A DNA stretch of 64,000 nt from Parasporobacterium sp. GTDB lineage: Bacteria; Bacillota; Clostridia; Lachnospirales; Lachnospiraceae. The notes below the pieces were generated by a model. The model had not been told where the DNA came from, searched no databases, and saw only the letters and a list, made by a program, of their open reading frames with translations. How positions within the stretch are numbered: the first letter of the stretch is position 1; each line of letters opens with the position of its first letter. The position numbers and the translations under genes were made by a program. Positions 34,486 to 46,631 of this stretch are shown piece after piece. Location of the stretch: contig JAFUBX010000030.1 in the NCBI GenBank assembly GCA_017459985.1, positions 1 to 64,000 on the forward strand, given 5' to 3'.

Positions 34486-34726
34486 ACATTCGGAAACACC
34501 AGTCAGTGCGGCTGGCAGGTGATTGTCAAAACAGCACAAAAATCAAAGCGGAATTTTGACATCAAATGGTGAAAAGTTACAAGAACAAACAAATTCACTG
34601 ATTCAATAAACATTCTGCCATATTCGAAAACAGGGTGGATTGATAAAATTATATCATCTAAAACTATGGCGCCTTTCCACTCCACTCCTTGGCAGGCGTA
34701 CATAAAAGAAAAGGAGAAGCTCCCTT
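34486..34726. other. Intergenic, no recognisable gene
   Basis: About 240 bases with no terminator-like hairpin I could define. A ribosome site AAGGAG at 34711 belongs to the short leader frame that follows. A promoter for the ATPase probably lies here. Confidence 0.4.
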
Positions 34727-34837
34727 ATGATTCAGGGTGCGGCAGTGTGGAGACCTGTCGTAATGCGTTCCGGGTTCTGCTCCCGGATCCGTGAGGCATT
34801 CGTTAGCGGTTGCTGGGATGCCGGAATCAGAAATTGA
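34727..34837 (+). CDS. Leader peptide of 36 residues, coupled to the ABC ATPase
   Basis: ATG at 34727 with AAGGAG ten bases upstream opens 36 codons (MIQGAAVWRPVVMRSGFCSR...) that end in TGA at 34835-34837. That stop shares its A with the ATPase start (TGATG). The ATPase itself has no ribosome site, so ribosomes finishing the leader could start it. The peptide has no recognised homologue, so this is a structural inference. Confidence 0.5.
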   Translation: MIQGAAVWRPVVMRSGFCSRIREAFVSGCWDAGIRN

Positions 34838-35991
34838 TGGCTGAAGTAAGTATCAGAAACTTGTTGAAGGTGTATGACAACAACATCACGTCGGTACATA
34901 ACTTTAACCTTGAGATCAAGGACAAAGAGTTCATTGTACTGGTCGGACCTTCCGGATGCGGCAAATCGACCTCACTGCGTATGATTGCCGGACTGGAAGA
35001 CATCACAGACGGCGAGCTGTATATTGACGGCAAGCTGGTGAATGACATTGCGCCGAAGGACAGGGATATCGCCATGGTATTCCAGAACTATGCTCTGTAT
35101 CCCCATATGTCCGTATATGACAACATGGCATTCGCACTGAAGCTGAAAAAGACACCAAGAGCGGATATCGACAAGAAGGTGAAGGAAGTCGCCGAGATCC
35201 TCGATATCACCCAGTACCTTGACCGGAAGCCGAAAGCACTTTCCGGCGGACAGAGACAGCGTGTGGCGATTGGCCGTGCCATGGTCCGTGATCCAAAGGT
35301 GTTCCTTATGGATGAGCCGCTTTCCAACCTGGATGCCAAGCTCAGGAACCAGATGAGAGCCGAGATCATCAAGCTGCGCAAGAAGATTGACACCACATTC
35401 ATGTATGTGACTCACGACCAGACCGAGGCCATGACCCTGGGCGACCGGATCGTTATCATGAAGGATGGTTATGTCAATCAGATCGGAACGCCCCAGGAGC
35501 TGTTCGACTGCCCGGTGAATCTGTTTGTTGCCGGATTTATCGGTATGCCGGTCATGAACTTCTTTGACGGAAGCAAACTGGAACTGAAGGACGGCAAGTA
35601 TTATGCCAATATCAAAGGCGCTGTGTTCGAACTCAGTGAATTCCAGCAGAAGGCACTGGCCCAGAACGGACAGCAGCCCTGCGATATCATTGCAGGCGTC
35701 CGTCCGCAGTACATTACCGTCGGAGAAGGTGATCTTCACGGAGAAGTGGAAGTTTCCGAGATGCTGGGAAGCGAAGTGGACCTTCATGTCAACTGCGGTG
35801 GCGACGATGTGGTGATGGTTCTTCAGACCATGAATCTGGAGGAGGACGTTTCCATCGGCGCACAGCTTGATTTCACCGTACAGCCGAGACTGATCCAGCT
35901 GTTTGACAAGGCAAGCGGAAACAATCTGATCTGGTATGACCAGGAGTCCGTGGACCGGCATGAAGCACATTGCAAACGGTACGATTTCTAG
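34837..35991 (+). CDS. msmX: MsmX/UgpC-type sugar ABC ATPase
   Basis: 384 residues. Walker [10 protein letters not shown], the Q-loop [13 protein letters not shown], signature [15 protein letters not shown], Walker [14 protein letters not shown] and the H-loop in [10 protein letters not shown] are all intact. The C-terminal 140 residues are the MOBE/OB regulatory domain of MalK-type ATPases ([23 protein letters not shown]). It energises the permeases at 28916 and 29827. Start chosen at 34837, overlapping the leader frame stop, as no ribosome site is near. Confidence 0.92.
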
Positions 35992-36040
35992 GTACAATAG
36001 TCCTGCCGGAAATCATTTCAACTGTCAATAATTTTTATCA

Positions 36041-36070
36041 CTGCTCCGGCAATCAGCCGGAGCAGTTTAT
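36041..36070 (+). terminator. Terminator-like hairpin after msmX
   Basis: CTGCTCCGGC-AATCA-GCCGGAGCAG, a 10-bp perfect stem, then TTTAT. Confidence 0.65.
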
Positions 36071-36085
36071 CTGATAGGACCCTAC

Positions 36086-38032
36086 ATGGACAAGAATTAC
36101 TATCCGCTGGCACTGAAGGCGGGGCAGAAACAGTATAAAGAAGACCTGGCCAGGAAAGAGTCTGCCTTTCTTCCTGCCCTGGACGAGATGCTCACCATGG
36201 AGCAGATGGCCCGGAAGGTCGATCTGGGACTGGTGCAGATCCCTGCAGAGCTGATTGTCGGCACCAAATCCGTCGGAAGAACCGCCTCCTTTGCCTCCAA
36301 TTTCATGCCGCTGGCGGAGGATGGCAGCGAGTTCGCTTCGAAATGGAAGAATCTGTGCAGCAGCCATCTGGAGGAGGGGATCCGGGATCCCATCAAGGCC
36401 TGGGAATACAGGAATCGGTTCTATGTGGAGGAAGGCAATAAGCGGGTCAGTGTCCTGAAGTTCTTCGAGGCCGTCAGCATTCCCGGTCTGGTTACAAGAA
36501 TCCTTCCGGAGCCAGATGGCAGCGAAGAAACGGAGCTTTATTATGAATTCCTGGATTTCTATCAGATCACGAAGGTGAATTTTATCGAATTCTCCAGGAA
36601 AGGATCCTACAAAAAGTTTCTTCAGTTGATGGGACGGGAGGACCGCTCCGGCTGGGACGAAGAGGTCGTCAAGAAGCTGCGGACGGACTTTTTCTATTTC
36701 CGCAGAGCCTTTTCCGAACTGGGCGGTGATAAACTGGAGATCACCGCAGCGGATGCCATGCTGCAGTATATGAGCATCTATGGATATGATGCCATCCGGG
36801 GATCCTCCCATGAGGAGATTCGAGGTGTCCTTTCCAAGGTGTGGCAGGAGATCACCCTGATTCAGGAGCCGCAGCCCATCAGTATCATTGAAGATCCGGA
36901 GAAGGACAGTACTCCGGGGATCTTATCCCGGATCATTCCGGCAATTCCCTGGCCCAGGACGGTGGTGAAGGTATTGTTCCTGTACAGCCGCCGGCCGGAG
37001 GATTCCAACTGGGTTTCCGGACATGAAAAGGGCAGGCTTGAGGTCCAGGAACGCCTGCAGGGCCGGGTGGAAACGGAAACGGCGGTGTGTTCCGGGGAGG
37101 AAGAGGCCGAACAGGTGATGCAAAAGGCCATTGAACAGGGCGTTCATGTGATCTTTGCCACCGCGTCGGAGATGCTGAACGCCTGCCTGAAGGTGGCGAT
37201 CGACCATCCCCAGACGTCGATCCTCAATTGTTCGCTGAATGTCTCCCACCGGTATCTGCGGACCTATTATCCCAGAATGTACGAGGCCAAGTTCATCTCG
37301 GGAGCCATTGCCGGGGCGATGTGCAGCAATGACAGGATCGGGTACATCAACAATTATCCGGTCTATGGGAATATTGCGGAAGTCAACGCCTTCGCCAGGG
37401 GGGTGCAGCTGTCCAATGCCCACGCCAGGGTTTATCTGGAATGGGCGGATGATTCTTCCATCAATGAGAAGGCCCGGCAGCTTCTTGATCAGGGAATCAG
37501 CCTGATCTCCGTGCGGAACCGGAGCCGTTCCGACGGGAAAGAAAAGGACCTGTTCGGTCTGCAGCTGGTGGAAGATCACAAGGTGACGGAACTGGTCTCT
37601 CCGGTCTGGAACTGGGGCGCTTATTATGAGCAGATTCTCCGGAGCATTCTGGATGGCAGTTTCTTCGGAAAGGAAACGAAACAGACGAAATCCCTCAATT
37701 ATTACTGGGGGATGTCCTCCAATGTGGTGGGAATCGAATTTTCCGAATCCCTTCCCCGGGGCATCCGGTATCTGGGAGAACTGATCCACAAGGCCATCCG
37801 TATGGGAGTCTGCCGGCCGTTCTATGATCCGCAGCTGGATGAACAGGGCAACATGCAGTGGCATAATATCAAGGCGACCATCAGTATGGAGGAGATCATC
37901 CGGATGGACTGGCTGGAGCCCAATATCGTCGGATCCATTCCGACCTACGAGCAGCTGGATGAAAAGGCGAAGAAACTGGTGGACGTGATCGGCGTCCGGA
38001 CCGCCAGAAAGGATCAGGACGAAACCATATGA
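36086..38032 (+). CDS. Cytosolic BMP-domain protein with a ParB/sulfiredoxin-like N-terminus
   Basis: 648 residues. There is no signal peptide or membrane span, although the C-terminal half (about 290-640) is a BMP/Med family solute-binding domain: KVLFLYSRRPEDSNWVSGHEKGR, then EAKFISGAIAGAMCSNDRIGYI. The N-terminal 250 residues contain WEYRNRFYVEEGNKRVSVLKFFEAVSIPG, which resembles the ParB/sulfiredoxin nucleoside-binding fold, plus a helical middle. BMP proteins elsewhere bind nucleosides or sugars outside the cell; here the domain would act inside as a sensor. It overlaps the metallophosphoesterase by four bases. It is likely a co-transcribed regulator of sugar use, which is inference. Confidence 0.75.
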   Translation: MDKNYYPLALKAGQKQYKEDLARKESAFLPALDEMLTMEQMARKVDLGLVQIPAELIVGTKSVGRTASFASNFMPLAEDGSEFASKWKNLCSSHLEEGIRDPIKAWEYRNRFYVEEGNKRVSVLKFFEAVSIPGLVTRILPEPDGSEETELYYEFLDFYQITKVNFIEFSRKGSYKKFLQLMGREDRSGWDEEVVKKLRTDFFYFRRAFSELGGDKLEITAADAMLQYMSIYGYDAIRGSSHEEIRGVLSKVWQEITLIQEPQPISIIEDPEKDSTPGILSRIIPAIPWPRTVVKVLFLYSRRPEDSNWVSGHEKGRLEVQERLQGRVETETAVCSGEEEAEQVMQKAIEQGVHVIFATASEMLNACLKVAIDHPQTSILNCSLNVSHRYLRTYYPRMYEAKFISGAIAGAMCSNDRIGYINNYPVYGNIAEVNAFARGVQLSNAHARVYLEWADDSSINEKARQLLDQGISLISVRNRSRSDGKEKDLFGLQLVEDHKVTELVSPVWNWGAYYEQILRSILDGSFFGKETKQTKSLNYYWGMSSNVVGIEFSESLPRGIRYLGELIHKAIRMGVCRPFYDPQLDEQGNMQWHNIKATISMEEIIRMDWLEPNIVGSIPTYEQLDEKAKKLVDVIGVRTARKDQDETI

Positions 38033-38634
38033 ACATCCTTGTGCTGGCGGATCTGGAAAGCAAACGGTTCTATGATTACTATACCCCGGGCAGACTGGAC
38101 GGATTTGACCTGATCATCTCCTGCGGGGATCTTTCCAGGGAATATCTGGAATTTCTGGTAACCATGGCCAGGTGTCCCTTGCTCTATGTTCACGGAAATC
38201 ACGATGATGCCTTTGACAAGGATCCTCCGGGCGGATGCATCTGTATCGAAGACGACATCTTTGTGTACCGGGGCGTGAGATTCTTCGGTCTGGGAGGGTC
38301 CTACCGGTATAAGGATTCCGGGGAGCATATGTATACGGAACTGCAGATGCGGTGGCGGGTCTGGAAATGCGGATTCCGGATCCGGAAGAACAAAGGGTTT
38401 GACGTTCTGGTCACCCATGCCCCGGCCTTCGGGATCGGGGACAGCGAACACATTTCCCACCGGGGATTCAAGACCTTCGTGCATCTGATGGAGAAATACC
38501 GGCCGAAATATCTGCTGCATGGACATATGCACCGGAACTACGGACCCGGGATCCCCCAGGTCAGGTCCTATCAGAATACGACGGTAGTGAATGCATTTGA
38601 ATATTATCAGTTGAATTATCAGGAGCAGACATGA
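38029..38634 (+). CDS. Metallophosphoesterase
   Basis: 201 residues, translationally coupled on both sides (ATGA at 38029 and at 38631). The calcineurin-type motifs are GDLSREY, GNHDD, THAPAFG and HGHMHRN. The first motif, normally D-x-H, reads ADLES: the Asp is present and the usual His is replaced by Glu. That is tolerated in some members. The substrate could be a cyclic nucleotide, a phosphosugar or a nucleotide; none can be chosen from the sequence. Confidence 0.8.
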   Translation: MNILVLADLESKRFYDYYTPGRLDGFDLIISCGDLSREYLEFLVTMARCPLLYVHGNHDDAFDKDPPGGCICIEDDIFVYRGVRFFGLGGSYRYKDSGEHMYTELQMRWRVWKCGFRIRKNKGFDVLVTHAPAFGIGDSEHISHRGFKTFVHLMEKYRPKYLLHGHMHRNYGPGIPQVRSYQNTTVVNAFEYYQLNYQEQT

Positions 38635-39038
38635 TCTTTTATTTAGCGCTATTTTTACTGATGTGGAGCATGATCTTCAGTGCGGCAAGGTTCCTGCAGT
38701 ATTTCCGGATCCTGCGGAATTATAAGGAACATGCGGTTGCAACTGTGGTCAATGTGACAAAACGGATGGCCATGAGAAAGCATGAGAAAAAGGCCGTCAA
38801 TGTCACATTGGAATATGAGATCGACGGCAAACCGGGACGCAGCGAAGTTCCGGTGGAATCGAAATATGCGGAGAATTTCGCCCTGGGGAAGGAAGTTCCC
38901 ATACGGTATTATGTTGCGGAGAACGGAGCGGTTCATATTGCTTCCGATAATGATTCCATAAAGAAATTCATGATCGGGCATCTGGCCGCGGTCATACTGG
39001 AAATCACAGCGTTTGTATTGATCTGGATCTATATGTAG
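38631..39038 (+). CDS. DUF3592-like small membrane protein
   Basis: 135 residues: an N-terminal span FYLALFLLMWSMIFSAARFL, an exposed middle domain (ATVVNVTKRMAMRKHEKKAVNVTLEYEIDG..RSEVPVESKYAENFALGKEVPIRYY) and a C-terminal span AAVILEITAFVLIWIYM. The domain resembles DUF3592, whose function is unknown. It is coupled to the metallophosphoesterase stop. Confidence 0.65.
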   Translation: MIFYLALFLLMWSMIFSAARFLQYFRILRNYKEHAVATVVNVTKRMAMRKHEKKAVNVTLEYEIDGKPGRSEVPVESKYAENFALGKEVPIRYYVAENGAVHIASDNDSIKKFMIGHLAAVILEITAFVLIWIYM

Positions 39039-45032: not shown

Positions 45033-46631
45033 ATGAAAAAACTGATTTATCTGGCAGCAGTATTGTTAATGACCGCCCTTTTGTCCGGGACCTTTGTTTA
45101 TGCCGGCGAGGAAAGTGCTGACCCGGCATCGGCGGCAGGAGATCTCTCCGGAGCACCGGGCATGGAACTCAGGAAGGTGGATGTGCCATTGAGCCCGGAG
45201 GGGGAGATGACCATGGCGGATCTGTCGACGCTCAGCATCAGCAGGAAAGAAATCGAACTGAGCGATGAGGAACTGAACAATATTCTTGACAATCTCCGCT
45301 ATGTCGGATCGGAGGAAGAGCAGATCACGGAAGGGATCCTTAAAGAAGGGGATGCGGTCTGTATCGAATATACGACTCCGCTTCTGGAGGAACCGCAGAT
45401 CTGGATGCTTCTTTTGGGAGAACACGAGTTTGGGGAAGCTCTGGATCAGGCACTGATCGGAAGTGAGATCGGGACCTCTCTCGATATCACCTGTTTCTTC
45501 CCGGATTACGTTGGAGAGATCGGCGGACAGAAGACCCAGGTACATGTGACGGCTTTGTATAAGAGTGAGACCCGGCTTCCGGAGATGAATGATGAATTTG
45601 CCCGGGAATATTCTTCCCAATACATGGATACCCAGCTTGATACGGTGGAAGAGCTCTCTGCCTATATCCGGGAAGAGTTCGGACGGCAGCTGAAGGAAGG
45701 GGCGATCTGGTCCAGGCTGCAGAGTATGCAGAAGATTATTTCCTATCAGGAGACCCACTTTGAAGTAGCGAAGGATTTTATTCTCCAGGGACTTCAGATG
45801 CAGGTGGATTCCTATCAGGAAATGGGCACGGAGGGACTGACAGCGGACTATCTTGCTCAGGTCTACGGGTATGCCACAGCAGAGGATTATGCGGCGGAAA
45901 CAGCCCTGGACTACGTGAAGGATCTGATGCTGGTGGATTATCTGGCGGAGGAACTGCACATCACCTGTACGCAGCAGGATGTGGAACAGGCCATCACCGA
46001 GAACCTTCTTGATGACGAATTGAATGAACTGACTCTGGAAGATTACAAAGAAATGAACGGAGGCGACTGGATCTACCTGTATGAACGGCTCAGTGTAAAA
46101 TATTCCAGGATCATGGAAACGCTGGTACAGCAGGTGCAGGTGTTGGATGATACGGACGCTGGGGATGCCGGATCCAATACCGTGGATGCAGGGGGATTTC
46201 CGGACCTTCGGCAGTTTACGGCAACCACCATCGACGGAGAAGAATTCACCCAGGCGGATCTGATGCAGAAGGATCTGACCATACTGAATGTCTGGGGAAC
46301 CTACTGCGGTCCCTGTCTGAAGGAAATGCCTGCGCTGGCGGAATTTGCAGCCTCCCTACCGGAGAATGTCCAGCTGATCACGTATTGTGTGGATGCTTTC
46401 TATAAAGCAGAGGAGGCCGGGGCAATCCTGGAGGAGAATGGCCTTGATGCCATCGTGATTACCGGCGGAGACGGGGATTTCAGCAGGCTGGATGCCGTGC
46501 TGCAGTATGTTCCGACAACGCTGTTTTATAACAGTCACGGAGAGATCGCTGCCGATACAATCATCGGATCCCCGACGGATCTGATGGATGTCTATACACA
46601 GAGAATGAACAGCGCGCTGGGAAATAAGTAA
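45033..46631 (+). CDS. Exported trigger-factor-like chaperone fused to thioredoxin
   Basis: 532 residues with signal peptide MKKLIYLAAVLLMTALLSGT..AYA. Residues about 95-170 form an FKBP-like domain (EGDAVCIEYTTPL, LPEMNDEFAREYS), and about 175-385 the helical trigger-factor C-terminal chaperone arm. Residues about 395-532 are a TlpA-like thioredoxin with WGTYCGPC (Trp421, Cys425, Cys428) and a cis-Pro in VPTTLFYN. A trigger-factor-type folding arm combined with a disulfide-active domain outside the membrane is unusual. It is expected to fold secreted proteins and reduce or isomerise their cysteines. It has a paralogue without thioredoxin at 48745. Confidence 0.8.
   Translation: MKKLIYLAAVLLMTALLSGTFVYAGEESADPASAAGDLSGAPGMELRKVDVPLSPEGEMTMADLSTLSISRKEIELSDEELNNILDNLRYVGSEEEQITEGILKEGDAVCIEYTTPLLEEPQIWMLLLGEHEFGEALDQALIGSEIGTSLDITCFFPDYVGEIGGQKTQVHVTALYKSETRLPEMNDEFAREYSSQYMDTQLDTVEELSAYIREEFGRQLKEGAIWSRLQSMQKIISYQETHFEVAKDFILQGLQMQVDSYQEMGTEGLTADYLAQVYGYATAEDYAAETALDYVKDLMLVDYLAEELHITCTQQDVEQAITENLLDDELNELTLEDYKEMNGGDWIYLYERLSVKYSRIMETLVQQVQVLDDTDAGDAGSNTVDAGGFPDLRQFTATTIDGEEFTQADLMQKDLTILNVWGTYCGPCLKEMPALAEFAASLPENVQLITYCVDAFYKAEEAGAILEENGLDAIVITGGDGDFSRLDAVLQYVPTTLFYNSHGEIAADTIIGSPTDLMDVYTQRMNSALGNK

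Follow-up and report, generated by a model that had tools for sequence, protein, structure and literature searches.

The closest described relatives of the system analyzed here are the ParB-CTPase-fold fusion proteins surveyed in PNAS in 2025, in which, according to the main text of that survey, a ParB fold with the GxxR phosphate-binding (P) motif is joined to a lineage-specific domain (PMC12704722). The same text, which gives PF02195 as the query of the survey, describes the ParB fold as binding CTP, ATP, or GTP, with neither the sequence nor AlphaFold3 telling which of them (PMC12704722). The protein considered here, encoded on the forward strand of the window (the whole 64,000-nucleotide stretch of Parasporobacterium sp. 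DNA that was analyzed), is likewise a fusion of a ParB fold, including the GxxR motif, with a second domain, but PF02195 (ParB_N, cut-off 26.3 bits) has no match in it up to E 1. A search of the main text of the survey (PMC12704722) for the terms BMP, substrate-binding, phosphoesterase, ferredoxin, and DUF4032 found none of them.

The second domain resembles the BMP/PnrA-type binders of purines and nucleosides (3s99, AtzT, PnrA, and RfuA), from which the fusion protein differs in having no visible signal peptide and in carrying an additional domain, and any one ABC transporter gene family occurs beside the fusion gene in 8 of 67 loci at the most. The Med-type comK activator (2hqb) also has the BMP fold and is named as a regulator; its likeness is distant and confined to the BMP part (profile E 8.4e-9). 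The free serine kinases SerK and SbnI have the ParB fold as well, and the stand-alone relatives of the N-terminal domain discussed below match the SerK model weakly, the relative L062 scoring 18.9 bits, far below the cut-off of 380 bits. The partner enzyme of the fusion protein keeps the GD, GNHD, H, and GHxH motifs of the calcineurin-like metallophosphoesterases and differs in motif I, which is usually D-x-H in these enzymes and is here D-x-E. The domains are individually known, while the unit of fusion protein and metallophosphoesterase (MPE) appears to be undescribed in the literature searched, where no account of the pair was found and the term 'DUF4032' returned no paper.

The open reading frame at 36086–38032 (+ strand) encodes a protein of 648 amino acids that is predicted to be cytosolic. 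That it is a real gene, as the preliminary description had assumed, is borne out by its conservation: a full-length relative of 73% identity is present in a Parasporobacterium MAG, and four further full-length relatives show 36–44% identity. Such relatives are also found in Oscillospiraceae MAGs, and a putative one occurs in a single MAG of the Anaerolineaceae. The N-terminal domain of the fusion occurs in 162 of 397 genomes of the family, apparently Lachnospiraceae. By inspection, the N-termini of the homologues (the starts having been chosen by a script as those nearest to the start of the window protein) are short and polar, without a hydrophobic leader, and no signal peptide or lipobox for export is visible in them, in agreement with the initial view of a BMP-type domain that lacks a signal peptide. 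A Pfam scan of the whole protein at E ≤ 1 returned only Bmp, above its cut-off, and PHP (0.21); no helix-turn-helix DNA-binding domain following the ParB fold was detected in that scan. One genome (G243) has a fusion gene copy that is split into several frames and adjoins an intact MPE gene, and further matches of the N-terminal domain lie elsewhere in the same genome.

The N-terminal ParB/sulfiredoxin (Srx)-fold domain, together with the following segment that is common to its stand-alone relatives, extends over residues 24–206 in the hhalign alignment (36155–36703, + strand). Its ParB-like motif is EGNKRVSV at residues 116–123, of which EGNKR (residues 116–120; 36431–36445, + strand) constitutes the GxxR phosphate-binding motif. 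The block around these residues is near-invariant in 38 relatives, Gly117 and Arg120 being identical in 38/38, and in the wider set GxxR is kept in all 67 loci, as EGNKR in 66 and EGHKR in one. The alignments of 38 loci omit L004 (a near-copy of L003), L006 (a match to the BMP domain only), L007 (the window itself), and L037–L052 (from genomes shared with some of L008–L036).

The assignment of the fold relies on intermediates. Profile–profile comparison by hhalign of the 38 fusion N-termini with 11 stand-alone relatives gives a probability of 98.9 over 172 columns (E 3e-17), and the comparison with eight of them a probability of 98.7 (E 2.1e-16); the intermediates carry DGNHR at the motif. When the profile of the eight intermediates is searched against the PDB, the 22 best sequences all belong to the ParB/Srx superfamily (sulfiredoxin, Noc, ParB, SerK, and SbnI), with sulfiredoxin first at E 0.0026 and the remainder at 0.02–0.44, such that the matches are weak singly, yet all of one superfamily. 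Among them is 1vk1, named 'conserved hypothetical', which we take to be a SerK relative. When the profile of the 38 fusion N-termini was itself run against the PDB by hmmsearch, nothing significant came up, sulfiredoxin 6ky4 appearing at E 2.2 in the register of the motif; two toxin-subunit matches of the same profile (E 1.8–1.9) were disregarded as chance. None of the curated Pfam and NCBIfam models recognizes the N-terminal domain of the window protein, the NCBIfam SerK model having no match up to E 1, and among the 38 relatives Pfam ParB_N matches two (best E 0.0036) and the Noc model three (best 0.011). On the basis of the invariant GxxR, the hhalign probabilities, and the PDB matches of the intermediates, we consider it established at the level of sequence profiles that the domain is a member of the ParB/Srx superfamily, as initially suggested; the profiles do not place it in ParB proper.

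Structure prediction had been proposed as a check of the fold. The full-length AlphaFold model, built from six sequences, has a mean pLDDT of 57.4, with the N-terminal part at or under ~60, and shows a strand–strand–helix arrangement around GxxR at low confidence. A single-sequence model of the N-terminal 158 residues (pLDDT 38) was discarded. Among the Foldseek matches of the full-length model are Noc (7ol9, 1.1e-5) and CDP-bound ParB (7bnk, 1.5e-4), which speaks for the fold, but these matches fall in a low-confidence region and have a TM of only ~0.1 and an rmsd of 14–21. VIA-align covers residues 288–604 in most rows and is thus uninformative on the N-terminal domain.

The BMP/PnrA-type ligand-binding domain comprises residues 288–619 (36947–37942, + strand), and Pfam PF02608 matches residues 294–470 with 59.3 bits (cut-off 24.1). 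Its nearest solved relatives, 3s99 (7.8e-27) and AtzT (6pi5, 3.6e-23), both bind purines. In AtzT, the guanine is sandwiched by Tyr45 and Trp194 (PMC6834077). Trp309 of the fusion protein aligns with Tyr45 and is a tryptophan in 38/38 sequences, and Trp453, equally invariant (38/38), is the candidate counterpart of Trp194 in a region where the alignment is uncertain. Glu165 of AtzT, in contrast, is replaced by a glycine (Gly428) in 38/38, with the loss of that contact, and Asn218 and Asn220 are unconserved in the fusion alignment, which is uncertain at those sites. Since the glutamate has become glycine throughout and the two asparagines do not appear to be kept, the ligand is likely to be different from, or larger than, guanine, and guanine itself may not be the one bound.

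The MPE gene (38029–38634, + strand) starts with a 4-nt overlap with the stop of the fusion gene. Its product matches PF00149 with 40.1 bits (cut-off 21.5) and PF12850 also above the cut-off. The metal motifs GD, GNHD, H130, and GHxH are invariant in all 26 of the 38 MPEs that were aligned for this purpose, and motif I is D-x-E in 37/38, with other residues in the wider family.

The coupling to a metallophosphoesterase, noted from the window alone in the preliminary description, recurs in nearly all fusion loci. In 65 of 67 (the window, L001, L002, L003, L005, 60 of the family sample, and two of the class, with L004 and L006 omitted), the MPE gene follows directly on the same strand, the gap never exceeding 104 nt in these 65; the two exceptions belong to one genus, and their genomes have an intact MPE at another site. 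Apart from the MPE, clustering of the neighbors in these loci revealed no recurrent gene, the commonest family occurring in 8/67. From the complete lists of genomes with a match, 160 of the 397 family genomes have both the fusion domain and the MPE, two the fusion domain only, one the MPE only (161 with MPE in total), and 234 neither, which corresponds to a Fisher p of 2.9e-109, a value that overstates independence because the genomes are related. The unlinked loci that keep both genes are a better argument than this p-value. Both fusion-only genomes are 83–84% complete: in one (G334) the contig ends within reach of the gene, which extends up to its edge, and in the other (G348) an intact fusion gene lies on a 6.2-kb contig with no MPE in the 2.5 kb downstream. 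The sole MPE-only match is weak (1.8e-40, all others being 9.9e-64 or better). In G030 and G175 the MPE is close by on the opposite strand. These counts show, at the level of gene content and order, that one orthologous MPE family is a near-obligate genomic partner of the fusion protein.

A phylum sample of 398 genomes, searched with the profile of the 38 fusion N-termini, gave matches in 21, namely five full-length fusions and 16 shorter proteins of 125–361 amino acids, too small to include the BMP domain (in one of them, from G736, the match covers 40 positions only). A C-terminal CxxCxxC cluster of the 4Fe-4S type is present in 13 of these 16, and ferredoxin models match five of the 11 that were scanned; one example, L070 (YYIVDGNHRVAAAR), matches DUF4032 at 2e-6 and 4Fe-4S models at 2.5e-13. 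Pfam was run on six of the 16. The same 13 genes that encode the cysteine cluster have an MPE just upstream on the same strand, 42–115 nt away as measured from match to match. Two minimal ParB-fold proteins of 201–208 amino acids (L181 and L183), which fall below the threshold of the profile search, also adjoin an MPE. The sampled loci accordingly display other architectures than that of the window, with the MPE beside a ParB-fold protein with a cysteine cluster in L081–L087 and beside one with no extra domain in L181 and L183.

The MPE is found in 19 of the 21 phylum genomes that have the N-terminal profile. In G681 and G736, which have a ParB-fold gene, the MPE goes unmatched even at 1e-10; in G412 the two genes lie on different contigs. 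Conversely, six of the 25 phylum genomes with an MPE have no match to the N-terminal profile at 1e-6; in two of these (G668 and G735) a divergent ParB-fold gene is adjacent to the MPE, and in the other four (G397, G695, G717, and G785) no ParB-fold gene occurs within the 9–12 kb examined around it. The presence of the MPE beside 13 of the 16 BMP-less proteins, all with the cysteine cluster, indicates that the ParB-fold protein and the MPE form a core that is older than the BMP fusion, in which the sensor is exchangeable and the BMP domain is one of several attached parts.

Some of these loci have neighbors worth recording. In G397 and G695, which represent one genus (L180 and L179), the MPE adjoins an adenine deaminase (TIGR01178), a hint toward purine metabolism. 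In L085 and L087, the MPE and ParB/cysteine-cluster genes stand between a gene for a nagA-type amidohydrolase (above the cut-off in L085, just below it in L087) and a gene whose B12-related match is clear in L087 but weak in L085.

We propose, with a probability of roughly 0.45, that the fusion protein and the MPE constitute a two-protein cytosolic signaling unit, in which a ligand-gated nucleotide-binding switch of the ParB fold controls its own MPE or is reversed by it. The BMP domain would bind a small, flat, aromatic metabolite in the cytosol, probably one resembling a nucleobase or nucleoside, given that purines are the ligands of the nearest solved relatives and that the two invariant tryptophans fit ring-stacking positions. 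Ligand binding would alter the binding or hydrolysis of a nucleotide, or phosphotransfer, at the ParB-fold domain. CTP chemistry, raised in the preliminary description, is possible at this domain, the GxxR motif not being diagnostic of the nucleotide. The MPE may then be the output, an enzyme gated by the fusion protein, or alternatively the reset, a phosphatase that would undo the phosphorylation carried out by a ParB-fold kinase of the SerK type. The core found in other lineages has a cysteine-cluster (4Fe-4S type) domain, or nothing, in place of the BMP domain. A broader and more tentative reading, to which we give clearly less weight, is that these proteins represent an undescribed class in which a cytosolic NTP-binding ParB-fold switch has an exchangeable sensor, a BMP domain for a nucleoside-like metabolite or a 4Fe-4S-type domain for the redox or iron state, and an MPE output acting on a nucleotide-type messenger or a phosphorylated target.

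A metabolic enzyme pair has to be considered as well, in which the ParB-fold domain is a small-molecule kinase similar to SerK or SbnI, the MPE is a phosphatase or phosphodiesterase of the same short pathway, and the role of the BMP domain is to supply or detect the substrate. This scenario draws on the stand-alone relatives, whose E-values are better for the SerK model than for the ParB ones (of the 11 of 16 compared with NCBIfam, 10 match SerK, with a best value of 1.9e-6, and all 11 match parB_part, with a best value of 2.9e-4), and on the adenine deaminase and nagA-type genes that adjoin the MPE in one genus and in L085 and L087, respectively. However, no metabolic gene recurs in the 67 fusion loci, where the commonest neighbor after the MPE reaches 8/67, and the fusion family has EGNKR where SerK has a motif of the DGHHR type. 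We consider it unlikely that the pair is of this kind.

The patchy occurrence (162/397 genomes) and variable genomic position of the fusion gene would also fit an anti-phage or conflict system, in which infection would be sensed by the BMP/ParB protein through a nucleotide or nucleoside signal, with the MPE as effector, and the MPE matches the PADLOC candidate PDC-S10 at 9.8e-19. The latter is perhaps a general phosphoesterase match, the fusion protein itself has no credible match in PADLOC (best 0.046), no gene family recurs beside the pair when the neighbors are clustered, and a scan of IMG/VR yielded three loci with matches to the BMP domain only, which together make such a function improbable. 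Still more doubtful is a ParB-fold domain that is a structural remnant, in a protein that acts as a BMP carrier or buffer with an incidental MPE partner: the divergence from ParB_N and the low-confidence model would be in line with it, but GxxR is kept in 67/67, and the part that accompanies the MPE in other lineages is the ParB-fold domain, not the BMP domain.

In the window, the fusion gene is surrounded by sugar genes, which include an ABC permease and a malK-type ATPase by Pfam and, judged by eye alone, alpha-galactosidase-, amylase-, beta-galactosidase-, and fructokinase-like reading frames. A malK-I RNA (RF03069, 110 bits) is located at 34662–34842, where the gene for the malK-type transporter ATPase begins. 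A terminator-like hairpin of 27 nt (36040–36066, + strand), with an 11-bp GC-rich stem and a T-rich tail, separates the fusion gene from the transporter ATPase gene upstream of it. The fold of 36026–36076 has an energy of −22.6 kcal/mol (z −7.2), with none of 200 shuffles as good, and the hairpin is not listed in the pattern scan of the window. The small membrane protein that follows the MPE (38631–39038, + strand) had been labeled DUF3592, a name that finds no support, as the window ORF has no Pfam match to E 1 and its L001 homologue none to E 0.001. The search for the same triplet in other genomes retrieves this third gene in two of the 67 loci only, the window and the 73%-identical L001. 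Further downstream, at 45033–46631, an exported-looking ORF combines a weak trigger-factor C-terminal match (0.003) with a redoxin/thioredoxin domain.

That the fusion protein regulates the surrounding sugar operon, as its flanking sugar genes in the window and in L001 might suggest, is scarcely tenable, given that this context is found in those 2/67 loci (in L049, three related genes lie on the opposite strand), that the hairpin separates the upstream genes from the fusion gene, and that Pfam finds no DNA-binding domain. The sugar-operon link and the triplet were hence rejected on synteny, the regulation of the operon being largely refuted by the lack of conservation. The preliminary description had named the absence of a conserved link with sugar operons as an observation that would refute its proposal; that absence is seen here, yet the finding holds up in a different form, the conserved unit being the ParB-fold domain with its phosphoesterase. 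An upstream riboswitch was also considered as a clue to the ligand and set aside: Rfam matched no family in the 20 scanned of 29 small loci, and the malK-I RNA of the window precedes a different gene.

The occurrence of the pair in 160 of 397 apparently Lachnospiraceae genomes, and of the core with the same MPE in other lineages of the phylum sample, points to a large regulatory or metabolic function. The exchange of a BMP domain for a 4Fe-4S-type domain on one core offers a direct test of the role of the ParB fold outside DNA segregation. If the broader, more tentative reading is correct, Lachnospiraceae would read an internal metabolite by means of a binding fold of the periplasmic type.
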